Shown here in pieces: positions 2,967-23,600 of a stretch of 27,156 nt of DNA (its first letter is position 1; each line of letters begins with the position of its first letter). The stretch is taken from IMG/VR virus record IMGVR_UViG_3300000116_000169, positions 1 through 27,156 of that record; one strand, 5' to 3'. The notes under the pieces are model-generated. The model was given only the letters and a program-made list of their open reading frames with translations. It searched no databases and was not told the origin of the DNA. The DNA is from a virus. The translations under genes were made by a program, and so were the position numbers.

Positions 2967-5900
2967 CTATGATTTGATCAATGTTGCGAATACCTTAAAC
3001 TGCGTACTTGATGAGGATGCAGGAGAACCATAAAGTCTTGCTTCACCAGCAACTAATGCCACATCATACGAAGATAGTTCAGTATTTGTCGTAACTTGAC
3101 CATATTCTGTTGCGTAGATGTCAGACCCATTGTGTACGACTAACATTTTCGTTATATGTTTATTTATTCCTTCTGAAGCAGTCACAGTTATCTCTGCACT
3201 ATCAAAATCTCCTTGCGTCCATGCAAAAAGAACAGAAGGTGATGTGGTTGTTGTTGTAACCGACTCTGAGAAGAATGCTGAATAGTCTTGAGAAATGACA
3301 GCTTGGACTTCCAAGTTGCCTGTCATTGTGTCACCAGTTTCGTTTACATAACGTGCATCTGCAGTTGGTTGATCAAGATACTGTCTGATTTCTTTAGTAA
3401 GACCAACAACATGTCCGAACTGATCTACTTCGATTGACCCGATAAACTCTGGATCGACTGAAGTATTTGCAAAGACAAGATTTGCCTGACTTGATGTATC
3501 TGTGTGAGATATTTCAACGTTTGCATTTATTGTGCCGCCGACAATATCTAATCCATCACCAACGCTGATTACAGTCTCAGAAGAAGTAAACATAGAACCG
3601 TTTGCGAGATTGATAAGATCAGTGAAACCGTTAACAAAACCATTTAGAGTAATGCGAGGATTACGATTGATTGTACCATCTACAACAAGGTTGCCATCTA
3701 TGTCTACATTTTCTTCAAATACGCTGTTGCCAGTTACAGTATCACCTGTTATATTGAAGTACAAAGAGTCTAGTGCACCATTGTCAAGTTCTGTTTCTGT
3801 GTAATATCTACCGTCAAGATCTGTACTTGAAGTTGTTATTACATGACCGAACTGATCAAAGTCCATTCCAGTAATTACATTACCATCTGCAAGACTAGTA
3901 TTTGCTATATCTGAGGTATTACTGTGAGTAAATGTGATAGAGGTATTTGTAAAATCATTTAAATTAAAACCACCACTACCATCAAGTCCATCTCCAGTAT
4001 CGATTTCAACTCTGGCGTTTCCTATTTGACTTGAAGCGTTATTAGCAGCTTGTGAAAGTAGTTCACTTGCATGTAAACCATCTACTGTGTCTGAATCGAG
4101 ACCAGATGTTGTTCCATCTACAGTTTTAATACCTTCTAAGATTTCTGTATTTGTAACAAGTACCTTCGTTCCATCAATTGTAAGAGTATCTGATATTGCA
4201 ACATTTCCTGTTACATCAATATCCACAAGTGTACTTGGAGACAATACAGAGATTTGTTGGAAGATTACATTCGCTGCAAACTGATCTATTCTTGCAAGGA
4301 ATTCTGATCCATCACCAGTCTGAATTGTAAGAGTGTTATTTGCAGATGTGTAAAGGAAGTCATCAACCCCTGCGACTGCAGTGTTTGACATTGCAGTGAT
4401 ACGACCATCAGCAGCTACTGTGATGATTGGGATCTGAGATGCAGTACCATAATCGCCCGCTGTGACACCAGAGTTTGCAATATCAGTTGTAAACTCTACT
4501 GTACCATTTGACGATGTTGCAGTACCAGTAACATCACCATTTAAAGTAACAGTTGTTTGCGTTTGAAGATGGAAAACAGAACCATCTCCAGTTTCAAGAG
4601 TAATCGTATTGTTTGCAGGTTCGTATGAGAAACTATCTACACCTGCAACAGCTGCAGTGTTCGCAAGAGTAATTCTACCGTCTTCATCAATAGTGATGAC
4701 AGGGATTGCAGTAGGAGATCCGTATGACCCTGCAATCACGCCAGTGTTTGCAAGTTCAGTTGTAAGTGTCATCACTCCTGTGTTAGAAGTGGCAGTTCCT
4801 GTTACCTTACCATCAAGTGTTAGTTCTAAACCATCTTCTAAAAGATCAAGTTTTGCACCATCTGCTGCAACATCACGACCATCAATCAGTCCACTTACAA
4901 TAATATTATTTGCAGTTATATCATTTGTTATTGTGATATTATCACCAAATGAAACGTTAGCACCAAAGTTATCAATTAAGGTATGGAATGACTGACCATC
5001 ACCTGTTTCAGTAGTGAGTGTGTTGTTTGCAGAAGTGAATACCATGTCATCCACACCTGCAACTGCAGAAGTATTTGCAAGAGTGATGAGACCGTGTTCA
5101 TCTACCGTTATAACTGGAATTTGAGATGGAGAACCATAAGAGCCTGGTGTGACACCAGTATTAGCAAGTTCAACGACACCATTTGCGACGACAAAGTCGG
5201 CATCGACAAATGCGGCGACACCTCTGTTATCATTTGATGCAAATTCTGTAGCGAGTTCTGCAGATATCGTAACAGTGTTATTAGATACGACTGTGTTAAT
5301 ACCCTCACCAGCGACAAAATTAATTGTTTCTCCAAGGTATACATTTTCGTCTGGATTAAATTGTTCTAAAACATTAATTACACCAGAACGGTTTGTGTCT
5401 GCACCATCAATATAATAGAATGTACCAACAGTATCTGGAACGAATGTAAGAGTTTCTCCACCAGTTGCAGGCGCATTTGTTACACCAGTTGCCTGATTTC
5501 CACTACCTGCAGTCTCTGCAGTTTTGATGTAAAGTTGAATAGTGTTTGCACCACTGACACTAAAGTTAATCGTATCACCGATATAAACTGTAAGTTCTGG
5601 TGGTGTAGGTGGGAATGAATAAGTTTCGTCACGAAGAGTACCACTTACTAACCAGTTTGCACTGTCAAACAAAGTTAAATTTGCAGTAACGAAACTTTCT
5701 GGAATTACTGGATTAGTTTCGCCTGTTATTTTAATGAATGGTTCAAATATTTGTTGATTTGTAATACCATCATCTTTTACTTTAACAACATCATTTTCGA
5801 TAGTAAGTGTAGATTCATCAACGTTAACATCAACAGTAAACGTATTAGAAAGACTTACACCTTCTCCACCAAAAAGATTATCTTGAAGATATCCAAGCGT

Positions 5901-8900
5901 TACTGCATCATTTGGTTGTGATGCAGCTCCAATATTACGAAGTACACTACCACCTAGTTGTAGAACACCATTATTTGAAGAAAATCCAGTACTATTAAAT
6001 TCTAGGTTATTTCCAACAGTAACGACACCTGAGACAGTCATGTCATTAATATTAGAAGTTCCAGCAGGGTTAATGATATAACTTGGATCTTGAGCATCAG
6101 CAAATGCACCAGCGATAAGAGATCCAGTGACCTCAAAGTTACCAGTTGAACGATTCGCCTTTGCAAAGAAATTTAAAGAGTTGTCTAGGAAACCAACCTC
6201 TCCATTAACTGCAGCGAGAATCGACCTATCTGCATTTGTTGGGCCGTCGATCATTTCAATTTGACACTGAGTATCACCGAAACCAAGAAGAAGGTTTCTC
6301 ATTTGAGATGTTTCAAACGGATCTACATAGAACTCTGTGTTCGCAGAGTCTGCAAATCTTGCCGCAACTATAGTTCCTGTACCGTGAACTGTACCATCTA
6401 ATCTATAGTAAATGTTATCTGTATTTGCAGTCGCAACATCCGCAACGTGTCCATATTGATCAAAGGACATGTTCTGAATAAGATTACCACCAAAGTTCGC
6501 AGTGTTTGCAACAGCAGATGTATCGTTGTGGTAAATTCTTGCAGTCGCCAGAGGAGTTGGTGCGTTGTTACCTGTTTGGCCATTATCAACAAGAATACCA
6601 TCATTACCTGCAATTACACGTGAAACTGTATTCGCAACAAGATCGACTTCGAACAAGTCATCACCATCGTTGTGTGTAATTACAACACCGTTATGAAGAC
6701 CTGCATTGAAACCATCTGTGAACATCAATCCAATGATGTCACGAGAAGTCTCTGTAAAGTCTGGAATAGCGTTCGCTTGAAGTTCTACTGGAATCTCTGT
6801 CGCAAAGTCAACACGTCCGTCTGGAGTGATACGAATACGAGGCGTAAATCCATCGTTACCATACATACCCGATTGGACGCCAGTATTTGCAACCGCCAGT
6901 TCCATCTCATTTGCAACTTCATCAACGCCTTTGAGTTCAAGGCCTTGACCAAGAGTAATCTGAGGATCTTCAAGAATTGCAAAGTTAGATGTGTTTGCAC
7001 CATCGATAATTGTTAGTGTGGATGCAAAACCACCATTCTCCAAATAATTTAAAGTAACTGCATCTTGGGGGTTGACAGGGTCTGCAACTTGCGATATAAT
7101 AGTATTGCCAACTAAAAGATTACCACTAGGTACTATTTCTAAATCAGTATCAGCGCCTGGTGTTGTAATCATACCATTCGCTTCGATAGTCAGTCTATTC
7201 GCATTCTGAGTGAAGAATTGAATCTGATCGTTATCTGCGTTTGGAGATGATTCCGCAACAATCTTTGTATCTTGGTCAACATCAATAACAGAGCCTGCAA
7301 GTCCAGACCAGATATTGCCATCATAACCTTCAAAACGTGAATCGGTTGTGTTGAACCTGATCATGCCTGGCGCTGGTGGAGATGGTCTCTGATAAGTTGC
7401 ACCGTTTGGAAGTTTTATTGCACCAAGTTGATTAAAGTAAGAGACTTCCCCTGCACCAAGAATAGTATCAGAGTTGATAGTTAGTTGACCATCAATTACA
7501 GTATTACCATTATCATAGTCAACAGTAAATTTGTTCTGAGCGTGGCCAAAGGTAAGGTTACCAGTATTGGCGAGGTTTAATCTTAGTGTACCAGCAGTAA
7601 AGAATTCTAGTTCATCATTGTCTGCGCCAGAAGAAGATTCTGCACGAACAAATGTATCCTGATCAGCATCAACTGTTCCACCAAGTCCAGTCCATACATT
7701 ACCATTATACGCCTCAAATCTTGAGTCCGTAATATTGTAACGAATCATACCTCGTTGTGGAGTGGTTCTTTGATCTGTTGTACCTGCAGGGATGACAAAT
7801 CCACCAGTGGAGTCAATCGTAACAGTATTAGATGTAATGACAAGATCTTCAAGATCCAAAGAGGTGATAGACTCTAATGTGACATTTGAATTTAAAGCAA
7901 ATTCTCTATCATCAATTAGTGTTAGGTCTTTACCTGCAGAGAGGTTACCACCACCAAAGAACTGTTGATATACAACATCGTCTTGGTCAATAACAAAGGT
8001 TTCTGCATCAACAACAGTTGCAACGAAACCCTTATCTCTGTTTGTTGTACCATCTGTAACAAATTCAAACGAGCCTGGCAACTCATTACTATCGTCTTCA
8101 AAAATATTTCTTTGAATTACCCAGTTGACAAATGCGTTACCAACTGTTAGAATATCATATGTACCGTTTTCTAATGGATTAGTTTGATCTTTTACAAGAA
8201 GACTATCTCCTTTAGACCAGATTACAACATCATCGATATTGAGTTGTGTGGCAGGATCCAGTGTGATTGTTGCACCATACGTGGTATTACCTGCGTTAAA
8301 CGTACCACCAAGATCTGCAGTTGTTGCAGCCTTGACAGATTTAGAACGAGATACAATCTCTGCAACCGCATCAACATAACGTTTGTTAGCGCCATCGTTT
8401 GGTTCAATTGGATCTCCAACAAAGAGAAGACCTGTTTCCAATGCGAGGATTTCTAAATCTACATATTCTTTTGTCGTTGGTGCTGAATTAGATGTCGGTG
8501 TTGGGAGATCGACAACTTCATTACCACCAAAAGTAATAAAACCATTAGCGGCAACATCAAGAAGTAAATTTGATGGGGATGCAATTGTTGTGTTTGCAAT
8601 CGTAAGATCACCAACACCAATCTCTGTCAATCCTGAAAGAATAGCTGTATTGTCGCTATTCTGAAGTACAAGATCACCAATCTGAATTGGATTGGCGGTA
8701 ATTACTCCATTAGAATTTGTAAAGTTCTGAGAATCGAATGATAGAGTACTTAATAGATTTACGTGACCAAATTCATCAATACCAACGTTCTGAACGAACC
8801 CCAGTATATCGTTATTTGTACTAAGTTCTGAAGATGTGTTTGCGTGAGCAATAATAATATTAGAAGTTTCAAGGTTGCGAGTATTCGCATCCTCAGGCGT

Positions 8901-9065
8901 AATAATAAGACCATTTCCTGATACACCGAGCGTGGCAACGTATTCACCAACAGTATCCACACCTAACGTAACGGAATCTGGAGTGATTAAAGGCTTCTTT
9001 TCGCCTTCTAGAACCGTAGTAACGGATCTCTGGGGTGCGTCACCTACTACAACTTTAATCGCCAT
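2967..9065 (-). CDS. Long tail fibre protein (2032 aa)
   Basis: The protein is built of many short beta repeats rich in N, T, G and D, as in T4-like long tail fibres. D-x-F/Y-G-H-V motifs occur at 97, 869, 1737 and 1881, some followed by D-L-D-G-R-Y-Y-T-E. Two copies of R/P-G-M-I-R-x-N-x-T-D-S-R-F-E-x-Y lie at 434-505 and 563-632. D-A-V-T-L-x-Y-L occurs at 668 and 1053. Three copies of a block with VITVDEHGLITLANTSAVAG lie at 1298-1360, 1437-1499 and 1529-1590. A degenerate cupredoxin-like domain is at 1131-1235. Residues about 1970-2032 (ITKMLVVHNGSDIYATEYGQ to the end) form a compact C-terminal domain that I recall in other marine phage fibres. There is no S74 chaperone domain at the end. 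The ATG follows the upstream stop by 3 bases, with an AGAGG ribosome site inside the upstream gene. The role is probably host recognition. Confidence 0.9.
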   Translation of the reverse strand: MAIKVVVGDAPQRSVTTVLEGEKKPLITPDSVTLGVDTVGEYVATLGVSGNGLIITPEDANTRNLETSNIIIAHANTSSELSTNNDILGFVQNVGIDEFGHVNLLSTLSFDSQNFTNSNGVITANPIQIGDLVLQNSDNTAILSGLTEIGVGDLTIANTTIASPSNLLLDVAANGFITFGGNEVVDLPTPTSNSAPTTKEYVDLEILALETGLLFVGDPIEPNDGANKRYVDAVAEIVSRSKSVKAATTADLGGTFNAGNTTYGATITLDPATQLNIDDVVIWSKGDSLLVKDQTNPLENGTYDILTVGNAFVNWVIQRNIFEDDSNELPGSFEFVTDGTTNRDKGFVATVVDAETFVIDQDDVVYQQFFGGGNLSAGKDLTLIDDREFALNSNVTLESITSLDLEDLVITSNTVTIDSTGGFVIPAGTTDQRTTPQRGMIRYNITDSRFEAYNGNVWTGLGGTVDADQDTFVRAESSSGADNDELEFFTAGTLRLNLANTGNLTFGHAQNKFTVDYDNGNTVIDGQLTINSDTILGAGEVSYFNQLGAIKLPNGATYQRPSPPAPGMIRFNTTDSRFEGYDGNIWSGLAGSVIDVDQDTKIVAESSPNADNDQIQFFTQNANRLTIEANGMITTPGADTDLEIVPSGNLLVGNTIISQVADPVNPQDAVTLNYLENGGFASTLTIIDGANTSNFAILEDPQITLGQGLELKGVDEVANEMELAVANTGVQSGMYGNDGFTPRIRITPDGRVDFATEIPVELQANAIPDFTETSRDIIGLMFTDGFNAGLHNGVVITHNDGDDLFEVDLVANTVSRVIAGNDGILVDNGQTGNNAPTPLATARIYHNDTSAVANTANFGGNLIQNMSFDQYGHVADVATANTDNIYYRLDGTVHGTGTIVAARFADSANTEFYVDPFETSQMRNLLLGFGDTQCQIEMIDGPTNADRSILAAVNGEVGFLDNSLNFFAKANRSTGNFEVTGSLIAGAFADAQDPSYIINPAGTSNINDMTVSGVVTVGNNLEFNSTGFSSNNGVLQLGGSVLRNIGAASQPNDAVTLGYLQDNLFGGEGVSLSNTFTVDVNVDESTLTIENDVVKVKDDGITNQQIFEPFIKITGETNPVIPESFVTANLTLFDSANWLVSGTLRDETYSFPPTPPELTVYIGDTINFSVSGANTIQLYIKTAETAGSGNQATGVTNAPATGGETLTFVPDTVGTFYYIDGADTNRSGVINVLEQFNPDENVYLGETINFVAGEGINTVVSNNTVTISAELATEFASNDNRGVAAFVDADFVVANGVVELANTGVTPGSYGSPSQIPVITVDEHGLITLANTSAVAGVDDMVFTSANNTLTTETGDGQSFHTLIDNFGANVSFGDNITITNDITANNIIVSGLIDGRDVAADGAKLDLLEDGLELTLDGKVTGTATSNTGVMTLTTELANTGVIAGSYGSPTAIPVITIDEDGRITLANTAAVAGVDSFSYEPANNTITLETGDGSVFHLQTQTTVTLNGDVTGTATSSNGTVEFTTDIANSGVTAGDYGTASQIPIITVAADGRITAMSNTAVAGVDDFLYTSANNTLTIQTGDGSEFLARIDQFAANVIFQQISVLSPSTLVDIDVTGNVAISDTLTIDGTKVLVTNTEILEGIKTVDGTTSGLDSDTVDGLHASELLSQAANNASSQIGNARVEIDTGDGLDGSGGFNLNDFTNTSITFTHSNTSDIANTSLADGNVITGMDFDQFGHVITTSSTDLDGRYYTETELDNGALDSLYFNITGDTVTGNSVFEENVDIDGNLVVDGTINRNPRITLNGFVNGFTDLINLANGSMFTSSETVISVGDGLDIVGGTINANVEISHTDTSSQANLVFANTSVDPEFIGSIEVDQFGHVVGLTKEIRQYLDQPTADARYVNETGDTMTGNLEVQAVISQDYSAFFSESVTTTTTSPSVLFAWTQGDFDSAEITVTASEGINKHITKMLVVHNGSDIYATEYGQVTTNTELSSYDVALVAGEARLYGSPASSSSTQFKVFATLIKS
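4296..5174 (-). repeat. Three tandem-type repeats in the 2032-aa fibre
   Basis: Three copies of a block of about 62 residues (1298-1360, 1437-1499, 1529-1590) share A-N-T/S-G-V-x-x-G-x-Y-G, I-P-V/I-I-T-V/I, G-R/L-I-T, N-T-x-A-V-A-G-V-D, A-N-N-T-L/I-T and T-G-D-G-x-x-F. The first two are separated by a 76-residue spacer, the last two by 29. Parts of the DNA are nearly identical between copies, so recombination within the gene is plausible. A weaker half copy lies at residues 723-754. Confidence 0.82.
5361..5675 (-). other. Degenerate cupredoxin-like domain in the 2032-aa fibre
   Basis: Residues 1131-1235 match the order of the cupredoxin-like domain of the collagen-like fibre: LYIKTAETAGSGNQATGVTN aligns with FYIKTARSLGTGDQYNTGVT, followed by L-T-F-V-P and F-Y-Y. 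The histidine before Y-I-K-T-A is replaced, and the C-x2-H-x2-M loop is replaced by IDGADTNRSG. The fold may be kept, but a type 1 copper site cannot form. Confidence 0.55.
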
Positions 9066-9485: not shown

Positions 9486-12400
9486 TTAAGTACCCCACAA
9501 AACAGTACCTGTTGAATCTTTAATCAACAAAGTTCTATTTGACGGATCTTGATGAGAACCAATAAGTGCACCCAGCGCAGTGATGTTACCATCAGCGGTA
9601 ATATTTTCAAGATATAAAGCGTCAGCTGATGCCTGATAGAAGAAATTTTGTTCGCCACCAGTATTTGGGCCCAGAGTTGCGTAAATACTACGTTGACCAG
9701 AACCACCTGCAACAAATGGTACAAACATGTTAGTAGACTCTAAACCACTACCGTAAATGTTTTGAACATCAAGTGTCGCAGCTGCGTTGCCTGGCCCTTC
9801 ATTACCTTGTAGACCTTGTAAACCATCAGCGCCTTGGAATCCTGTTGTTCCTTGCACACCTTGAATGCCTTGAAGGCCAGTTGCGCCTTGAGCGCCGAAA
9901 ACACCGGCAACACCTTGAGCACCTGTATCGCCTGTCTGTCCTTGGATACCTTGTGCGCCTGCTGCTCCAGTTCCAGCTGGGCCTTGGAATCCGTAATCCC
10001 CCTGCACACCTTGAACACCCTGACTACCCGAACCAACTATCCCTTGAGGGCCTTCTGGGCCTAAATCACCCTGAACACCTTGGACACCTTGAGATCCACC
10101 ACCCCCATCTGAGCCTTGGAAACCAAGATCACCTTGGAAACCTTGGAAACCACGTGTACCTTGAGTTCCACCGCCTCCCGCTGGGCCTTGGAAACCTTCA
10201 CCATCTGGGCCTTGGAAACCACGTGGCCCTTGGACACCATCTACTCCAGAACCAGTAGGGCCTTGAAAACCATAAACACCTTGGTAACCTTGGAAACCTT
10301 GAGCACCTTGGGTTCCACCACCACCAACGATTGCTTCACCTTGTACGCCTCGTTCACCTTGTACACCTTGAGGGCCTTGGAAACCTGCTTGTCCAATACC
10401 GTCTGGCCCTTGAACACCTTGATATCCACGTGGGCCTTGTGCCGTAGAAGGTTGTCCTTCTGCACCTTGAAGACCCTGCACACCTTGCCAACCTTGAGTA
10501 CCCTGTCCGCCAAATCCGCCAAATCCACCTTGTATACCTTGGACGCCTTGCGTACCTTGGATGCCTTGCAATCCACCGCCGCCACTAAGTCCTTGAAGAC
10601 CTTGTAAACCTTGAGTACCTTGAAGACCTTGAACACCTTGGTTTCCAGGCGGGCCAGGCAAACCACCAGTACCCTGACCACTAGCACCTTGCACACCCTG
10701 AGTACCTTGAATACCAGTTGTACCTTGTGGGCCTTGAATACCTTGGAATCCTGCACCATCATTACCTTGTACACCTTGGTTACCCTGCATACCTTGTACA
10801 CCTTGGGAACCAGATCCAGAAACACCTTGGAAACCAGTTGCACCTTGGAAACCTGCTGTACCTTGAGGGCCTTGAATACCTTGTGGGCCTGTTAGACCGA
10901 CACCAGTTGTACCTTGAATACCCAAGTCACCTTGAGGGCCTTGTGCACCCTGTATACTAACACCCTGTACACCTTGAATACCTTGGAAACCACGTGGGCC
11001 TTGAATACCATCAGTACCTTGTGCACCTTGTGTACCAGCGCCAGTTGAACCTGCACGAGAAAACGTGAGAACCACAGCATCATCTTGAGAAAATCCTGCA
11101 GCAGTACCACCCAAAGATGCAATATCAAATTCCCAATAAGAAGAAGGGTTTTTGTCAGTGACATCTGAATACTGGTAAACATGATATTGGTTTGGATTAC
11201 CAGCATCCATAACTTTTACTGTACCCTTGACAAGTCCTATAACGGAATCAAGAGATGAGTAAAATTGATCCATCAAATTAAATTGATCATCACGGTCATC
11301 GATCCAAAGTTTTGTCCCAGAAGAAAGGTTATTGTTATTTACTTTGACATAACCTATGCCAGGATCTGCATCAGTGAACGTATCGTTCCAAGAATATCTA
11401 AATGTCGCACCACCAAATCCACCAGATGAACCTTGTGGGCCTTGAATACCTTGTGGGCCTTGAACACCCTGAGTACCTTGAGGCCCAAGATCTGAGATCT
11501 TAAGAGTTCCGCCCATACCAGAGTGTAGAGAACACTGATAGTATAAAGTGTCTGGAGCGTTAAATGGTACTCTAAATGTGATCAATCCAACTGCAGCACC
11601 ATTGTTGGTTACCCCAGTATTATATTGATCCCCAGTACCAAGTGAACGTGCAGTTTTGATGTAGAACGGATGTCCAGAAGCATTCACATTGAATGAATAC
11701 GTGAAACCACGCAACAAATTAATTGTTGGGTTGTCAACCAAATCAATTGTGTATGCAATGTTACCGTTATTCGTTACTTCAAATACACGAGAACCTTCTT
11801 GTCCTTGAATACCTTGGAATCCTTGGAAACCCTGTGTCCCTTGAACGCCTTGAATACCTTGTAATCCCTGATCACCACTTCTGGTGAATGATACACGAAT
11901 GTCTGCACCATCTGTAAAGGATGTTACACCACTAATTCTTGCAACGTCGACTGTATAGAATGTAGAATTATCTGTTACACCTTCAACTCTAAATGCAACT
12001 TGATTGTAAATGTTTGTAGAATCAACAACTCTGATATATCCTTTGACTGCACCTGAAACCGCAGCAAATTCTGCGAGGATACCATCCATCACATTATTGC
12101 CTGCGTCATCATCGTCATCTATGATTAACGTGTTTGCAGAACTGAAGTCGATATTATTAAGTTTTAAAACACCATTTGTTGGTGTTGAATTGGTTGTATC
12201 GTTTGAGTAAGTATAGTCGTATGTAAGACCACCGAAGTCACCCAGACTACCCTGTAAACCTTGAGGGCCTTGTACACCTTGAATACCTTGAATACCTGAA
12301 GGGCCAGCTGGAATAAATGTGACTTGTGCTTCTAAACCGTATCTTGCAGTTGCATCTGCCCAAGATGTAGTATTTGCACCACCAGCGCCTAGATTACTCT

Positions 12401-14183
12401 TTTCAATAAAGGTAACGTCAAACCAACCATTATCTTCAACTCCGCTTGCCCAAGTCCAATCATTAATTTCATATGCTACAAATTCAAAATCGTTATTTAC
12501 TGGATCTCGTGGAGTTCTGATAATAAGTTGACCTTTTTCCCCTGCAGGGTTAGCGTCAATATAATTAAAAATGTCATCAATACGTCTATTAGTGTCAGAA
12601 GGTTTATCGTCAAACCAAATTTTATCTACATCATATACGTTAGCGACTCCGTTAACCGTACCATCGACGAATGCAAAATAACCAACGCCTGGAAAGGCAT
12701 CATTAACTGTTGGATTGTTAATCCAAGAGAATGTTAATCCACCATAGACACCTTCAAGGCCTTGAACCCCTTGGAAACCTATTGTACCTTGTGTTCCTTG
12801 AACGCCTTGTTGTCCCTGTAGACCAGTTGAACCAGTGCCACCTTGAATGCCTTGAGTTCCTTGTGGGCCTTGTCGTCCTTGAACGCCTTGAACACCTTGA
12901 ATGCCTTGGAATCCTGTTGTTCCTTGAACGCCTTGTGTTCCTTGAACGCCTTGGATACCCTGTGCACCAACTTCTGAAAAGGTAACAATATATGTGTCAC
13001 CAGAACTCTTACCAGTAATTTCACCAGTTACATGTCCGACTGAGAGAGTAAACCAACCAGTGTTATCTGTGATTTCATTAACAACCCAAAGTTCAATATT
13101 TGAAGCATTTGTGGGATCAATGAATCTCATGTACGCTTTTGGTGTACCAGTGTTAGAATCAAATCCGTTTAATAGATTGGAAATATCATCCAAGCCTGGC
13201 CCAGCAAGATCATCAATATAAATTTCTGTAGACGATAGTGTTGTTGCGTTATTATATTTAAATCCACGATTGCCAGGATCTGATGCAACATTATCTGCAC
13301 CTAGATCATATTCAAATGTGACACCACCGTAAGTGCCAGGAAATCCTTGAACACCCTGTCCGCCTTGTAATCCTTGCGGGCCTTGTACGCCCTGCAATCC
13401 TTGTGTTCCTTGCGGGCCTTGTGGGCCTTGAGTACCTTGAATACCCTGACCAGCAAATGCACCGTCTTGACCTTGAACACCTTGAAATCCTTGGAAACCC
13501 TGCGTTCCCTGTGGGCCTTGAACGCCCTGCAATCCTTGTGGGCCTTGTGGGCCTTGAACACCTTGAGTACCCTGATCGCCTTGTAATCCTTGCGTTCCTT
13601 GAACGCCTTGAATACCTTGAAAACCACGATCACCTTGAATGCCTTGAAAACCTTGAGTACCTTGACTTCCTTGAAATCCTTGGAAACCCCTAAATCCTCT
13701 AAAACCTTGTACACCTTTAGGGCCTAAATCACCCTGCGTACCTTGTGTACCCTGTACGCCTTGAAAACCTTGAACGCCACGGAATGTACCAATATTAATC
13801 CAGTTAACACCGTCATAGATCCAAAGTTCTTCATCTGCATCATCGATGACACCGTCACCAACACTTGCAGATGGAAATGCTGTATTAAGAGTTGCTTGAG
13901 GATCACCACCAGAATCTACATCAGCAACTGAACCGATAATGGTGAAGCCTGGCCCATAATTACCCTGAACACCTTGTGTACCTTGGTTTCCCTGTATACC
14001 AGTCGTTCCCTGCACACCCGCTACTGGCAACCATGCTACACCATCCGAATAACGGATTTCGTCGGTAATCGTATAAATTACCGAACCTTTAAATGCAGCA
14101 GGATCTAACTGTGCTGGATCTTGTGGTATACCATTACCAATCGTATAACCACGATTAGTAAAAGTGCGAAACCTAGTCGACAT
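9486..14183 (-). CDS. Collagen-like tail fibre protein with interspersed globular domains (1565 aa)
   Basis: The protein alternates collagen-type Gly-X-Y stretches with folded domains. Residues 1-55 are a head module ending in DEIRYSDGVAWLPVAG. Gly-X-Y stretches lie at about 56-77, 136-286, 408-480, 627-648, 771-797, 899-918 and 1049-1464. Y is mostly Gln (GIQGVQGTQGFQ); there is one GPP. Between them are a small W-containing domain (78-135), four related globular modules (287-407, 481-626, 649-770, 922-1044, most opening with Y/F-G-G-x-T-F/Y), and a cupredoxin-like domain (798-898). Residues 1465-1565 are a C-terminal cap. Gly-X-Y repeats in phage proteins are taken to form trimeric coiled rods, so this is probably a long flexible fibre. 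Poly-Gly hinges (GGGG at about 1201, 1287, 1337 and 1360) break the last rod. A GGAGG ribosome site supports the start; a hairpin terminator follows the stop. Confidence 0.92.
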   Translation of the reverse strand: MSTRFRTFTNRGYTIGNGIPQDPAQLDPAAFKGSVIYTITDEIRYSDGVAWLPVAGVQGTTGIQGNQGTQGVQGNYGPGFTIIGSVADVDSGGDPQATLNTAFPSASVGDGVIDDADEELWIYDGVNWINIGTFRGVQGFQGVQGTQGTQGDLGPKGVQGFRGFRGFQGFQGSQGTQGFQGIQGDRGFQGIQGVQGTQGLQGDQGTQGVQGPQGPQGLQGVQGPQGTQGFQGFQGVQGQDGAFAGQGIQGTQGPQGPQGTQGLQGVQGPQGLQGGQGVQGFPGTYGGVTFEYDLGADNVASDPGNRGFKYNNATTLSSTEIYIDDLAGPGLDDISNLLNGFDSNTGTPKAYMRFIDPTNASNIELWVVNEITDNTGWFTLSVGHVTGEITGKSSGDTYIVTFSEVGAQGIQGVQGTQGVQGTTGFQGIQGVQGVQGRQGPQGTQGIQGGTGSTGLQGQQGVQGTQGTIGFQGVQGLEGVYGGLTFSWINNPTVNDAFPGVGYFAFVDGTVNGVANVYDVDKIWFDDKPSDTNRRIDDIFNYIDANPAGEKGQLIIRTPRDPVNNDFEFVAYEINDWTWASGVEDNGWFDVTFIEKSNLGAGGANTTSWADATARYGLEAQVTFIPAGPSGIQGIQGVQGPQGLQGSLGDFGGLTYDYTYSNDTTNSTPTNGVLKLNNIDFSSANTLIIDDDDDAGNNVMDGILAEFAAVSGAVKGYIRVVDSTNIYNQVAFRVEGVTDNSTFYTVDVARISGVTSFTDGADIRVSFTRSGDQGLQGIQGVQGTQGFQGFQGIQGQEGSRVFEVTNNGNIAYTIDLVDNPTINLLRGFTYSFNVNASGHPFYIKTARSLGTGDQYNTGVTNNGAAVGLITFRVPFNAPDTLYYQCSLHSGMGGTLKISDLGPQGTQGVQGPQGIQGPQGSSGGFGGATFRYSWNDTFTDADPGIGYVKVNNNNLSSGTKLWIDDRDDQFNLMDQFYSSLDSVIGLVKGTVKVMDAGNPNQYHVYQYSDVTDKNPSSYWEFDIASLGGTAAGFSQDDAVVLTFSRAGSTGAGTQGAQGTDGIQGPRGFQGIQGVQGVSIQGAQGPQGDLGIQGTTGVGLTGPQGIQGPQGTAGFQGATGFQGVSGSGSQGVQGMQGNQGVQGNDGAGFQGIQGPQGTTGIQGTQGVQGASGQGTGGLPGPPGNQGVQGLQGTQGLQGLQGLSGGGGLQGIQGTQGVQGIQGGFGGFGGQGTQGWQGVQGLQGAEGQPSTAQGPRGYQGVQGPDGIGQAGFQGPQGVQGERGVQGEAIVGGGGTQGAQGFQGYQGVYGFQGPTGSGVDGVQGPRGFQGPDGEGFQGPAGGGGTQGTRGFQGFQGDLGFQGSDGGGGSQGVQGVQGDLGPEGPQGIVGSGSQGVQGVQGDYGFQGPAGTGAAGAQGIQGQTGDTGAQGVAGVFGAQGATGLQGIQGVQGTTGFQGADGLQGLQGNEGPGNAAATLDVQNIYGSGLESTNMFVPFVAGGSGQRSIYATLGPNTGGEQNFFYQASADALYLENITADGNITALGALIGSHQDPSNRTLLIKDSTGTVLWGT
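9792..11039 (-). repeat. Long Gly-X-Gln collagen rod with poly-Gly hinges
   Basis: This encodes residues 1049-1464, the longest rod of the collagen-like fibre, about 138 triplets with interruptions. On the plus strand it shows as endless CCTTG-type 9-base units (CCTTGAACACCTTGG and variants). The low complexity comes from the Gly-X-Gln codons. Similar but shorter tracts at 13326-13778 and 12744-12962 encode residues 136-286 and 408-480. Confidence 0.9.
11490..11792 (-). other. Cupredoxin-like domain inside the collagen-like fibre
   Basis: This encodes residues 798-898 of the 1565-residue protein. The order of motifs fits a small blue-copper fold: an early strand with SGHPFYIKTA (His 838), a middle loop GTGDQYNTGVTNNG, and a final loop YYQCSLHSGMGGTLKI with Cys 884, His 887 and Met 890. 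The spacing C-x2-H-x2-M is that of amicyanin-type copper sites. All four possible ligands are present. Whether it binds copper is not shown. Related domains of unknown role occur in marine bacterial and phage proteins, to my recollection. Confidence 0.65.
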
Positions 14184-14640: not shown

Positions 14641-17600
14641 CTATACTACTGCACGACTGTTCGAAGCACGTCTTGCGAGTTTACGAACAGACGAAGTAAA
14701 CGGTCTACCTTCAATTCGTCCAGTTCTACCGTTAATTCTCAAACCTCTTGCGAAGTACTGGTTGTTCAATTCATCAGCACCAGACCATCTTACACGACCA
14801 CCATCTTCAGAGAGAACCGAAGAAATCGCAGACGTTGCAGGCCCGAGGTTTCTAAAGTTCAGTGGCAACGCAGTTCTGTTAACACCTGCAGCACCACCGT
14901 TGAACTGGTGGGCAATAGATTCAACAAGTGAACCGAATGTCAACACGTCTGGTCTCAAAACATTATCTTTTAAACAATCATCAAACAACGCAGTTATAAA
15001 TGCACTATGTGCTCCATCTGGTGAGTAGTTCGCAATAATAAAGTCTCTCATACGATCCCATGTTTTATAGAATGCATACAGAAGATCAGTATTATTTGCA
15101 CCATCATTAACCCATGCAACACCGTTCCAATAGTATATAGTTCCATCGTAGAAGTTAATATTTGCATCATTAGAAACAATATATGCATGATTCTTCTTCA
15201 AGCTTACATTTGGATCCGACTGTAGAGCATTACGTGCTGAGATATCTGCAACTGTACCCTTAAATATCAACCCTGGCGTTGTCGGGTTGAATACTGGGAA
15301 GACGTGTTGACCCTTCTGATCAAACAACGATTGCGAGAATGTTCTTGTCGCTTTTGTAGATCCTCTTGCACCTGTATTCGGATTAGTAAACTTAACATCA
15401 TTCGCAATAGTCTGCAACAAATTACCTGCATCACGTCTTGTCAATCTTATATCGACAAATTTATATTCTGCATTGACAAATCTCACAACATCATATTGTA
15501 ATGGGCCACGTCTCGCAAGCAAAATATCTGCAGCATCTCTAAATGGTTTTGCAACCCATCCATAATCTGGTTCATCTAATTTTTGTAGTTCTTTTGTATC
15601 TTTATTTATCTGAGTTAGATAGAACATATCTGCGAGACCTTGAACTTTTTCAGCCTCTACTTCAGTTGCAGTTTCAGTCTTAATAACCTGACCTTCGTAC
15701 TTACCAAGAACAATATCCGCACAGATCTTACCAAGTTGACGATAAGATTTTGCAGTTGGGACACGTTGATCTTCTGGAATACGATATACTGTGTTCCAGA
15801 AATAGAAGTCTGCATTCCAACGAGATGCGGTATTACCACCGTAGTTCAAGTCATAAGAGAATGCGTCAATTAGATATCCAGTGTCACGAATACACTTAGA
15901 CTTATTATAATCAAGTACATTAAATTCAGTGTTAATAAAGTCGATCAAATCATCAGCAAGTTGAACTTTGTTGTCTTCAATCAAACCAAATGCACTTGTC
16001 AAATCTGTAGATACCCATGCAGTGTTCGCTTCTTGTAGTGGTGGAATTGCAGCCACACTATCTTCACGAATCACATCTTCTATGATACCCACAAGACTTA
16101 TAACTTCATTACCTTCTGCAAGAGTTGCTGGTACTCCAGATATATCCTGTACAGAAGAGGTAATTTTTGAATTCGCAGTGTCAATTTCTTGAACGATGTT
16201 GGACATCAGTAGTTTCATTGTACGATATACATCTGCAGTTTGTCTACGTGTATCTTTCGGTAGTACAGAAATACCATTTTCGAAGTAGATCTGTGCAGCG
16301 ATACGTGATGCATAGTTTGTCTCGTACTGAACATCATGTGATGCAGCATCAACTAAGAAGCCGATATCACGACGACACTTACCACGTGGGAATGACAATC
16401 CATCCCACTCACGAGATACGTAGTCGACAACATCATGAGCAAACTGAACTGAATCTCTTTGAATTAGTGTCTTTGCAGCAATATAGTTTGAAGGAACCCA
16501 AGATGTATCAGGCGCTTCATATGCTGGGATTCCTGATGGATCCTCATCATCTACTACATTAGCAATAAAGTTTGCAAGGTTTTTCGCTACATTTGCAATA
16601 TCACCACGTTCTGGATAAACTGCAGGAAGATAACGTTTATCTTGTTGGATAAAGTTTCCTAACACTTTAGTAAATGCATTGTCTACTGCAGAAACAAAGG
16701 TGTGTGGATATAGTCCTGTACCACCTGTTCCGACATTTAGAATAACTGTTGTATCAGTTACACCAATGATTGGACATGGTTTTCTCCAGTATGGATGATG
16801 TGGTGCAGGCGATGTATGATTTTGAACTCCACTACCCATATCACAACTAAATGTCATACCATAGTCAGCAAACATAATTGCTTCACCAACCTTCAATCCA
16901 TGATCGTATTGTAGTGTAGCTTCCATGATACCTGTGAAAGGATCATATGTTGCAGTCGTTGGCGTGAACTGAGAACCTAACTTAGAAGACACAGTTGGAG
17001 TGACATCCAAACGCATCAAGAGTTTTTCCATTACATCACCAAGATGCATAAACGCTTTCTTAGTTGGTTCACGTTGAGAACTTGGAAGTGTATTGATTGC
17101 ATTTTCAAAATAAATTTCTGCGTTTCTATGAGTCGCTGAATTACCACCATATTGGATATCATGAGAAATACCATCGATAATATATCCTGTATCACGACGA
17201 CATTTTGCTTCACTATATGGAAGTCCTTGATGATTTTCAACGATGTATGGAATAAACGAAGAAGCGAGTGTAGATCTCTTTGCATCAATCCATTCAGATA
17301 CAAACTGAGAATACCAATCAAATTTCAACGCATCCACATTGATCAGATCACTTGGGTTATCGTTATACAACCAAGTATATGAATTTCCAGTGCTACCACC
17401 TCTTGCTTCATATGGTGATGGATCAAGAGCAATAGCGACTTGATGTGCAACAGTTGGTTCAATCTCTGTGGGTAATACAGATACATCATTTGCACTAATA
17501 ACAGTTGCAACAATTTCTACAAGAGTTTTAAGTTCAAGAGCTTGAGCTGCACTAGCTGCAGCTGCAGCACTTGTACTTTGATTTTCTGCATTACCAGATG

Positions 17601-20600
17601 TTTTTGTAACTGATATATTTTGAATTACATCTTCCATAACATCTGCGATATGAGTATAAACATTCGCAGTAGCAGTAATCTGATTTGCAGGAAGAACAAT
17701 AATTCCGTTTTCATAATAAAGTTTTGCGAAGTTACGTACTGCAGTGTTACCACCATGCATGTAATCGTATGTTGCAGCATCAACTAGGAATCCTGCATCT
17801 CTCAAACATTTTGCTTGATCGTAACCAGAAGGGGGAGTGTTTGCATTAACATATGCAACGACTTCTGCAGCAAGGAAATCACGGTTAGCCATAAGAATGG
17901 ATGATCCATTTTGATAACCAACTGAGTCACCAGCATTACTTACATATCTAGATGATTTTCCGAATATGCCCCTTGCACCAGAAGAACCAAGACCATCAAG
18001 TTCAGTATCGTTTCGTGTTGTTAGTTTGTTGATTAGTGTATCAAACAATTTCTTAATAATTTGTTCGTTATCGCCAACAGATGGGCCTTCACCAGTATCC
18101 TCAGAACGATCTTTGATGCGTGTTTCGATCTCTTTGATCATCATCTTTTCCATGTTTCTCAAACCACCAACGGTTTGAGTCAACTGTTCATCGATGACTC
18201 TATCTGATCCAGAAGTTCCAGATAGATAACCACGTGCGTTAAAGATTACGTTGTAAACAGAGTCGGTTGCGAAGTCTCTACGAACCGCATCTATAAAGAA
18301 CCCTGCATCTCTTTGGCACTTATCTCTATCAAAAGTAAAGTAGTTTTGATTTAGATAGGATACAACTTCTTGTACCAAGAACTTACGGTTTGCTTGAAGA
18401 GTTTTACGTGCAAACGTGCGTAATGGTAACTGATCAGGTTTATCAGTAACTGCAGGAATATTTTCATTTGTACGATCATCTACTATATCTGCAATGACAG
18501 TAATCAAGTCTTGTACTCTCTGTGCAGTCGTTACAGATGTTGCAGTACCAGAGAAGTCTTGAGCAACAGTTTGGAACTGAACATGTTTGATTGCATCTGT
18601 AGTTGCACTTATGAATGTATGTGCACCAGCATAACCACCTGCATTGAATCCAGTCAAAGTAACGGTAGTTGCATCAACCGATTTAACAGGCCATGGAGTC
18701 AAGTATGCTGGATCTGGATAACCATCCCCTGCGACTGCACGTGGATGTGAAATCTGTACAGTAGATAAACTCGCAGCGTTTACACATTCGAATGTGATAC
18801 CTTCAGTTTCGAACCAGATGTAATCACCTTCTAAGATATCGTGTGAACCAAGAGTCAGTACCATAGATCCTTCTACTGGATCATAGTCTACATCAGTTGG
18901 AGTGTACGCACCTTCGAAGTGTGGTTCAATAACTGTTTCCAAAACAACTTTTTCTGCACGTTCTGCAAGATGAATAAACGCAGCACGTGTTGCATCATAC
19001 TGATAATCTGGAAGAAGATTAATAGAATTGATGAAGTATGCTTCCGCAGCTTTTATTGTTGCTTGATTACCACCATAAAGAAGATCTTCAGAAATAGCGT
19101 CAACCAAGTATCCTGTATCTCTGATACACTTAGATTGTTTGAAACCAATACCGTTATATGTTTCGTTAATATACTCAGTTACTTCTGTCTGTAGTTTCTC
19201 TGTTAGACCATTGATAAGTTTAGTTGCAGCTTGGAATTCATCTGCATAACCTGTCTCGCCAGGCCCAAATTCAAATGGTGAAAACTTATCTTGTGGGTAT
19301 TCCATTTCTGGGCCACCAACGTTGTAAGATAGTAGACCTGACTGTGCACCATCGATACCACCAGAACCACCTTTAACAACACCTTCACGTGCAGTAGATC
19401 CGCCACCGACAATTGTACCTTTCGCAGCGGTCTGATAGAATGCAGTTCCGATGTCATTTGGTTCAACTGGTGCAGGAAGACGATCAAGTGTATCTTCTTC
19501 AATACAGTCTGAAACTATGTTGATAAGATCTTCTACACGTTGACCCATAAAGTCAGAGAAGTATTTCTTGACTGCACCTGCTGATGCAGAAACGAATGCA
19601 TGAGGTTCTTGATATCCACCTGCATCACCCACATCTAATGTGATAGTGTTTGCAGTAGATGCAAGAATGCGAACTGGCTTTTCATACACTGGATCGGTTG
19701 GGCGTGGGTGTACAATATTTTGTACAGGAGTACCACAAGACAATGTGATTGACTCTGGATCAAAGATGATATAATCACCATTTGAGAAAGAGTGAGTTGC
19801 ACCAAGATCGATCATCATGATACCAGTAACTGGATTATATTCTACATCAGTTGGAGTGTATGATACGTTTGTCCATGCAGTCGATGCAACAGCATTGCCA
19901 GTTGTTGGTGTTACTGTTTCATTACGTGCAAGTTTTTTCGCAACACTCGCAATATGCATGAATGCTTCTGCAGTAATATGTCTTTGTTCTACTGGAAGTA
20001 CAGAAACTGCGTTTTCAAAATAAAGTCTTGCAACATTGATAGCGGAGACATTTGAACCATGTTGGATATCATAAGATGCAGCGTCAACTAGGACTCCAAC
20101 ATCTCTTTCACACTTAGCAACATCATATGTGAATGATGGATAATTTAATGCCAACCATGCAGTAATTTCTGCTTGTAAGAATGCTTTGTTAGATTGAAGA
20201 ATACCACGTGTATTGAGTGAATCATTAGAAACGTATGAGTCTCCAAAGTTGATTGGATCGATTGCACTACTACCGTTACTTACAATATCAATGATTTCAT
20301 CAAATGCAGCATTTGCACGAGTTTGTGCAGTACCAGAAAGTCTAGTATTAACCTGACCCTTGAGCCATGTAAATGCACCGACTGTTTCAGTCAATTGATC
20401 ATTAATAACTGTATCAGCACCTGTAGTACCAATCAGATAACCTTTACCCATGTATACAGAATTGTAGTTAGATCCTGTTAGAACATCACGTTTAACAGCA
20501 TCTAGAACATAACCACTGTCTCTTTCACACTTAGAACTGTCATAAATGAAGTAAGTGTTTGCAAGATAACCAACAACCTCGTTCGCAAGGAAATCACGGT

Positions 20601-23600
20601 TTTTCTGTAGAGAATTATATGCATTGACTTCATCAACATTTCCAGTCAATACCGCAACTGCACCTTCTGAGGCACGGACAAATGTGTGAGTACCACCACT
20701 ACCAATTCCAGCCTGAACTTGAATTGTATTAATGTCTGGTGTTGCAGTAATTGCCAACGGTGTTTTGTATGGCGGATCAGATGGTCTTGGATGTGAAATT
20801 TCTGATACATTACCATCAGAAGCACATGTGAATGTGAACGATCCTGGCATCAGTTCTACACGATCCCCTGCACTCAATCCATGATTTGGAATAGTGATTG
20901 AGAATACACCAGTACCGACATTATAAGATGCACCAGTTGGAGTTTTGAATTCTGCGTAAGATGCTGGATCTGACCAAATAACTACGTCATCACGGATACA
21001 ACCTTCTTGAGCACGTACAAATGTGTGTGCAGTACCACTTGCATACCCACCAACATTAACAGTAAATGTAGTCTCAGTTACAGCTGTGATTTTTACTGGA
21101 GTTTTATTGTATGGATCGTGGTAACGAGGATATGAATGCTCTGTTGCATTTCCATCTTTTGCACACGTAAATGTAATAGACTCTTGATCTATTTCAATAA
21201 ACTGACCAATTTTAAAGTTATGAACACCTACAGTAACTACCATAAGTCCTGTAGCAGGATCATATGTTGCAGTTGTTGGAGTATACGTTGTTTTACGTTC
21301 TGCATTGAATAGAGAAACCGCATTATCGTCTGCACGATAGAATGTATGTGCACCTGTGTATCCACCGGCATCACCAGCATTAACTGTGATTGTAGTGGCA
21401 GTAACTGCAGTAATATCAAGTGGTTTCTTATAGTTGTCTGTATCGCTACGTCTTGGATGCGAGATAACAACATTATTTGCATCACAATAGAAACTAATAG
21501 ACTCAGGCGCAAACATAACTTGATCATCAGTTGTCAAGTTGTGAACACCAATAGTGACTTCCATCACACCTGTCACAGGATTGTATGTAGCATCCGTTGG
21601 AGTATATGCACGACCCGAACCACCCATGATATGAGTTATTTCGTCAAATGCATTAGCTACATTCATCAGCACTGCACTATCGTGAGCTAGATGAAGAACT
21701 GCGTTATCCATTGCACTTACAAATGTATGAACACCAGTATAACCGTTTGCATCACCAGAATTAAATGTGATACTAGTTGCATCTACTGCAGTGATAACAA
21801 AAGGTTTATTGTAGTTTGGATCACTTGTATTTGGATGTGAATCTGTTCCAACAGCACTATTGTAAGTACATTCGTATGTAATAGATTCAGGCAACAACTT
21901 AATAGAGTCGCCTACTTGGATGTTGTGTGTTCCAATAGTTAGATTTGTAATACCAGTAAGTGGATCATATGTTGAATTTGTTGGAGTGTATGTCGCTTGT
22001 GTTTGATCTGAAACCAAAGATTTGAGTTCATTAACTGCACCAACTGTTTCTGGCAATTGATCTCCGACTACTTCACTTGCAGTTGCAGTGTAATATCCAA
22101 CCCCTGTCTGTACAGAACTGAAGTTTGTTCCCAAGACCATGTCTTGTTGAACTGCAGGAAGAATATATTCTTGAACGTCACGTGCACACTTTTCACTATC
22201 ATAGATGAAGAAGTTATTATCAATCCAACCCAACATATAATCTTGGATATATGTTTTGTTAGCCTGAAGTTGTTTACGTGCATTTCTCTTTTCTGCAGAG
22301 ATCGTTATATCATCACTGAAACGAAGTCCTTTTCCAACAATCTGTACTGCATTTTCCAGAGAACGAATATAGGTATGAGCACCTGTATACCCACCAGCAT
22401 CACCAGAGTTAAATTTAATTGTATATGCAGTGACAGCATCTACTTGAAGTGCATTCTTGTACCACTTATCAGATGGTCTTGGATGTGAAATTTCGATTGT
22501 CTGAAGAGTGGCAGTGTTTGCACAACTATATGTAATACCGCCTGGAGATATCTCAATAAGATCTCCCGCTTCAATATTATGTGGTTCGTCGAAGGTTACT
22601 ACAGTAATTCCAGATACTGGATCGTAAGTAGAACCTACTGGTGTATGACAATTTTCTGCAAGTCTAATTGAATCAGAATCTGCAGATTTAAAGTAATGAA
22701 TATTTGTATAACCACCAGCGTTACCAACCTGAACCACAAAGGTAGTATCAGTGACTTCTAAAATTGGAAGTGCTTTCTGGAACGGCCCATCAGTTGTTCT
22801 TGGATGGGTAAGTTCACCATCTTTACCATTAACACCACATTCAAATGTGATACTGTCAGCTTCAAATACAATCTTATCACCTTCTTCAAGTCGGTGTTGA
22901 CCAATTTCAACTTCCATAATACCAGAGATTGGATCATACTCAGCAAATGTTGGAGTATAAGTCTTTTTCTTCTCTTCTAAGAAATCAATTATTGTGTCGA
23001 ATGCATTATCTGCACGTGTTGCGCCAACACTAGAGTTTGCATCAAGAATTTCTGCAGTTTGATCTTTTAGTCTCTTATATGCAGCGATTGTTTCATCACG
23101 TTGGTTATTGATAACCTTTGCAGCTGCATTCATATAGTACGCATTACCTGCAGTAATGGCGTTATAATTTGTGTCTAACAACATGTCATGTGCGACTGCA
23201 GGCAGAATATAGTCCTGCGTATCACGACGACACGAAATAGAATTGTATGCAAAGAACTCGTCGTTGTCTTCAATCCAGTCAATTAATTCGTCTTGAATAA
23301 ATTTACGGTTGTCTTGGAGTAGTTTTCTTGCACTAGTATATGCATCGCTAACATCACTGTTTGCAACTTCTGTGAAAACAATGGGAGATGCATACTCTTC
23401 TCCGTTTTCTAGAATGTTTAGAAGTTCATCGTAAGAAGTATTTGCACGTTCCAAGATCTCTGTGTTTGCATTAGAGAAAAGATCTTCAATACGATCTTGT
23501 AGATAACGGTTTGCACCTAGAGTTTCTGTCAGCTGTTCGCCAGGCACAACATATGATATTGGTGAACGGTAAGTAATACCACTCAAACGACCCCAGTAGT

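Follow-up and report, generated by a model that had tools for sequence, protein, structure and literature searches.

Does a phage tail fiber carry a copper site? Cupredoxins are electron carriers of cells, and a sequence-only reading of a viral contig had placed a cupredoxin-like domain with intact copper ligands inside a collagen-like fiber, where copper binding would be unusual. The window, i.e., the whole stretch of DNA analyzed here, comprises an entire IMG/VR record (27,156 bases) whose minus strand encodes a series of large virion proteins, and a megablast search against named phages returned no match. The protein in question, encoded at 9486..14183 on the minus strand, is a collagen-like tail fiber protein of 1,565 aa (Pfam Collagen, 7.4e-72; phrog_5073, tail fiber, 7.6e-125) with interspersed globular domains that alternate with collagen-like G-x-Q rods. 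Four globular domains of another kind (aa 289-405, 484-626, 654-769, and 927-1049) look similar to each other; they display the pattern TFxY...IDD...VTDN..., likewise alternate with the collagen rods, and matched no Pfam family. The window also encodes a fiber-like protein of 3,811 aa (14641-26076, minus strand) with 31 Cys distributed along its length, the remaining proteins of the cassette being nearly free of Cys.

The cupredoxin-like domain spans aa 801-898 (11490..11783, minus strand) and is supported by the C-terminal part of phrog_677 (5.9e-28), an AlphaFold2 model, and structure and profile matches in the PDB; the end at 11792 given in the sequence-only reading lies three codons beyond the domain as drawn here. 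The flanking collagen rods were confirmed, one N-terminal to the domain at aa 770-799 (11787..11876, minus strand) and one C-terminal to it at aa 900-926 (11406..11486, minus strand). Translation of the open reading frame bore out the residues of the four proposed ligands as well, which follow the amicyanin order with C-x2-H-x2-M spacing: His 838 in G-H-P-F (11670..11672), which is 99% conserved among 79 unique relatives, Cys 884 (11532..11534), and His 887 (11523..11525) are predicted copper ligands 1, 2, and 3, and Met 890 (11514..11516) is the predicted axial ligand 4, all on the minus strand. The ligand loop reads CSLHSGM in the fiber and CTPHPFM in amicyanin. Cys 884 is the sole Cys of the protein, which contains five His and eight Met, and from this composition only 1.6e-5 C-x2-H-x2-M motifs would be expected.

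The AlphaFold2 model of aa 801-898 is a compact domain with a pLDDT of 98.4 and a pTM of 0.90. Foldseek searches with this model revealed AcoP, rusticyanin, and plastocyanin on top, with values from 1.7e-5 (AcoP) to 1e-3, and VIA-align matched it to rusticyanin over 89 residues (Z 10.2, rmsd 2.1) and to the N-terminal cupredoxin domain of a copper nitrite reductase (CuNIR) over 83 residues (Z 9.9, rmsd 1.9). In the model, H38 directly precedes strand 40-43, C84 is the end of strand 79-84, and H87 and M90 lie in the loop leading to strand 91-97, places in the topology which we take to be those of the plastocyanin ligands.

At the sequence level, a single-sequence phmmer search of the PDB with the domain yielded nothing beyond a chance match (0.096), so that a profile was required. 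With the family profile, built from 53 relatives, 32 sequences of the PDB were recovered at E<=10, each of which is either a cupredoxin or a multicopper protein; among them are copper nitrite reductases, laccases, auracyanin, amicyanin, pseudoazurin, azurin, and plastocyanin. The best match was a copper nitrite reductase (6e-4), in which YICTLHPWM was aligned with YYQC-x2-H-x2-M of the family, and the Cys, second His, and Met of the family align with the ligands of CuNIR and amicyanin. An hhalign comparison with amicyanin placed H838 two residues off, and against single cellular cupredoxins hhalign reached a probability of 40-49% at most. Pfam PF00127 (Copper-bind) did not match the fiber domain at E<=1, the only Pfam result being a sub-threshold match to a plant At5g54830-like domain; two of nine proteins tested, the bacterial relatives L098 (31.2 bits) and L095 (24 bits), passed the Copper-bind cut-off of 21.2 bits. 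As modeled, the fiber domain is a cupredoxin-superfamily domain by fold and ligand set, though below PF00127.

Comparison with the small type 1 cupredoxins shows what is shared and what is not. Amicyanin, plastocyanin, rusticyanin, AcoP, and auracyanin resemble the fiber domain in the predicted beta-sandwich, the ligand order, and the topological positions of the ligands, and the C-x2-H-x2-M spacing is common to amicyanin and the fiber domain. In contrast to these proteins, the fiber domain is part of a phage protein of 1,565 aa, shares only about 20% identity with them, and has no signal peptide of its own or known partner. In plastocyanin and amicyanin, the first His is usually followed by Asn, whereas H838 is followed by Pro. 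Amicyanin proper is the electron acceptor of methylamine dehydrogenase and is encoded with it, while no methylamine dehydrogenase gene was recognized in our record, the window being a phage structural cassette; functionally, the fiber domain is therefore not an amicyanin.

Free variation of the four residues among homologues had been named as an outcome that would refute the claim. In a first set of domains from viral and bacterial contigs, 128 of 131 carried His, Cys, His, and Met (HCHM) at the ligand positions. Because two of the six search patterns behind this set contained ligand residues, a ligand-blind query was built from an alignment restricted to the residues that separate the first His from the Cys, with patterns free of ligands. 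Even so, 45 of 66 non-redundant full domains were HCHM, including all nearest relatives, and the others were mostly complete losses, in which the first His is replaced by Y or F, the Cys by S, A, or T, and the second His by Q, the Met often being kept. Cys and second His were both present in 46 domains, both absent in 18, and mixed in two; the corresponding figures for the first and second His were 45, 17, and four. The Fisher p-values for this joint retention or loss are tiny, but ignore kinship. When the tree was inferred with the ligand columns removed, about 10 changes between the intact and the broken state were counted, at least four of them on well-supported branches, and a single large ligand-free clade accounts for 15 of the 25 broken domains. 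Cys and second His went the same way in three of the four pairs that are strictly independent and opposite ways in none, which with so few pairs is not significant. The ligands were thus largely kept or lost as a set, and the ligand-blind search did not bear out the refuting condition of free variation.

The ligand codons vary synonymously (TGT 75, TGC 46), and a dN/dS of about 0.12-0.16 for the fiber domain against its nearest relatives indicates purifying selection. The ligands stay constant in a loop whose intervening residues vary, which hints at the metal rather than at a single fixed docking partner. The 17 domains lacking His, Cys, and His still show 88-100% conservation at most core positions, and the fold is therefore kept without the metal site. 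Altogether, the profile search, the predicted fold, and the conservation within the family back the claim that this phage fiber contains a cupredoxin-like domain whose amicyanin-type ligand set is intact.

The window harbors a second cupredoxin-like copy at 5367..5642 on the minus strand (hmmsearch, 8.2e-19; search of its own genome, 2.3e-6), located in a neighboring virion protein of 2,032 aa (2967-9065, minus strand). This copy is ligand-free, the four positions being occupied by I, D, D, and R. Although modeled with less confidence (pLDDT 82), it again has cupredoxins as its best PDB matches, with a modest Z of 6.5. The nearest relative found, a contig of 119 kb designated G001, carries both copies. 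Its counterpart of the fiber domain shares 78% identity across the domain, with 22% of the residues changed and every one of the four ligands in place, while its counterpart of the second copy (L245) is 85% identical and has none of them; G001 also has a third copy, which is HCHM. Each of the two copies is in the same state in G001 as in the window, meaning that the ligand-bearing and ligand-free states are stably inherited side by side. The presence of both in one virion cassette offers a ready-made controlled comparison for the role of metals in virions. In a clade of very large virion proteins (L179, L185, L190, L204, L213, and others), a ligand-free cupredoxin-like domain lies between partial, degenerate copies; the open frames with this domain measure 4,372-5,045 aa and come from five contigs.

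Copper binding by a tail fiber had been called unusual, a judgment that needs qualifying, as the module proved widespread in marine T4-like phages. A tblastn search at E<=1e-3 located the domain in 355 of 50,697 phage records, nearly all of them of Synechococcus phages, Prochlorococcus phages, or cyanophages. In a profile search of 20 whole phage genomes, chosen for their tblastn match, all 20 had at least one match, and after removal of near-copies 25 of 27 full domains were HCHM, whereas those of RN05-S and AG-345-F15 read FAVM and TCHM, respectively; P-HM2 has a weaker, partial copy with KDHT. The carriers are gp9, often with the domain as its end (Syn33, P-SSM4, S-SSM7), fibers, and a subtilisin-like protein of the virion region, at its C-terminus, and from this variety of carriers we conclude that the module is mobile. 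The protein of cyanophage S-H9-1 that is annotated as a subtilisin-like serine protease (L121) and its S-CAM4 counterpart (L122) both have the C-terminal domain with four ligands.

Among the closest described systems is phrog_677, the baseplate wedge and tail-fiber connector gp9 of cyanomyoviruses such as Syn33 and P-SSM4, whose last approximately 100 residues correspond to the fiber domain. The four ligands are present in the gp9 C-terminal domains inspected, and the description of phrog_677 does not mention copper. While gp9 has an N-terminus like that of T4 gp9/gp10, the window protein is a collagen-rod fiber instead, and of the 412 positions of the phrog_677 profile it matches only 189-410, compared with 1-409 for Syn33 gp9. 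The window fiber is hence not a gp9, but has the C-terminal module of gp9. On bacterial genome contigs, of Flavobacteriaceae and their relatives and of Bdellovibrionales, the domain occurs in short proteins with lipoprotein-like N-termini, and all 22 non-redundant domains were HCHM. Several of these small free-standing relatives (L089, L091, L102, L104, L085), mostly below the Copper-bind cut-off, apparently constitute an unnamed cupredoxin family.

We consider it somewhat probable that the fiber domain is a cupredoxin module which is competent to bind copper through a complete type 1 ligand set of the amicyanin kind and serves as a virion decoration, probably stabilized by metal. Marine phages append members of this module family to many virion proteins, namely gp9-type fiber connectors, fibers, and S8-peptidase-like virion proteins. 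The module would fold as an apo beta-sandwich in the host cytoplasm and take up copper there or after release, upon which the metal would lock the C-terminal loop and produce a rigid, environment-resistant fiber element, perhaps in contact with the cell surface as well. Copper occupancy, a stabilizing role, and host contact are steps that we infer. A structural or adhesive decoration with metal stabilization is favored since the residues between the ligands vary, the carrier virion proteins are many, and ligand-free versions retain a virion role; the latter also imply that the metal is dispensable for the virion role in general. The habit is familiar from other phages, whose Ig-like decoration domains (Hoc and others) are likewise small beta-sandwiches added to a variety of virion proteins; the fiber module differs from them in its cupredoxin fold and its conserved metal-ligand set. 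What emerges is a copper-competent cupredoxin as a reusable building block of phage fibers in hundreds of marine phage genomes.

Four other explanations have to be weighed against a metal-stabilized decoration. The module could be purely structural and metal-free in vivo, its ligand set being kept by descent, a relic or near-relic as the sequence-only reading had also considered. Several phage lineages retain the fold after loss of the ligands, as does the second copy of the window, so that the fold alone can serve, but the G001 counterpart of the fiber domain retains the four ligands despite its changed residues, and the ligand-blind domains comprise a majority with all four, few intermediates, and losses mostly of the whole H/C/H set. 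We therefore regard a relic as rather unlikely, and a decaying relic at 11490-11783 in particular is disfavored. Electron transfer is the usual role of type 1 copper sites, and the center might accordingly buffer copper, shield the fiber from oxidants, or exchange electrons. Against such redox or copper handling stands a module enclosed by collagen rods without an evident redox partner, no partner gene being recognized in the window, and this makes it very improbable. Cupredoxin sites bind other metals in vitro, and hence the site might hold Zn, Fe, or Ni, or form a non-metal H/C/H/M cluster; as the solved relatives found are all copper proteins, we give this little credence.

The remaining alternative is host docking, in which the copper center or the face of His 887 would engage a surface or periplasmic copper protein of the host, or a copper-uptake receptor, during adsorption, in the manner of a Trojan horse. 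This reading would agree with the location of the domain in tail fibers and fiber connectors and with the free-standing lipoprotein-like relatives in bacteria. Moreover, iron-binding HxH motifs in phage fibers have been proposed to act as a Trojan Horse (PMC11705849), and the copper site would work likewise. Such motifs occur in T4 gp37 and have been proposed in Alteromonas phage R22Y (PMC11705849). They resemble the window site in being metal sites, known or proposed, of tail fibers, but are His-only, octahedral, and located in the fiber needle, whereas the window site is a predicted Cys/His/Met site in a globular domain; the 1,565-aa fiber contains no HxH motif. Furthermore, the loop residues around His 887 are variable, so that a single conserved docking patch is not evident, and the domain is found mid-fiber between rods rather than at an end. 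A copper counterpart of the iron Trojan Horse idea is thus possible but unsupported, and docking appears unlikely, albeit less so than a relic.

The major capsid protein of G001 is of the T4 type, its nearest named relatives being those of Sinorhizobium phages phiN3 and phiM12 (65%) and Methylophilales phage Melnitz (63%). The gene psbA (Photo_RC) was absent from all 17 related contigs tested, most of which are partial, and a cyanobacterial host is accordingly unsupported. The window phage is a marine T4-like phage whose host need not be a cyanobacterium. More broadly, marine T4-like phages, many cyanophages among them, might have copper-loaded virions, with type 1 centers in fiber connectors and fibers that are needed for stability or adsorption, a tentative proposal that we hold as possible rather than probable. 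Copper is scarce, occurs in seawater in tightly complexed form, and harms cyanobacteria through its toxicity; if virions were copper-loaded, phage infection in the sea would depend on copper chemistry and take part in it. The fiber module also carries the iron-based debate on metals in the tails of marine phages over to copper.

No paper describing or naming a cupredoxin domain in phage virions was found in the open literature, to which the search was largely confined; what surfaced on copper binding was a viral nirK, and cupredoxin goes unmentioned in a cryo-EM study of cyanophage A-1(L). We provisionally regard the domain as undescribed in phage virions. Short "beta-sandwich" proteins of Pithovirus and Marseillevirus match the predicted fold as well, with values of 1e-5 to 5e-8 in BFVD.
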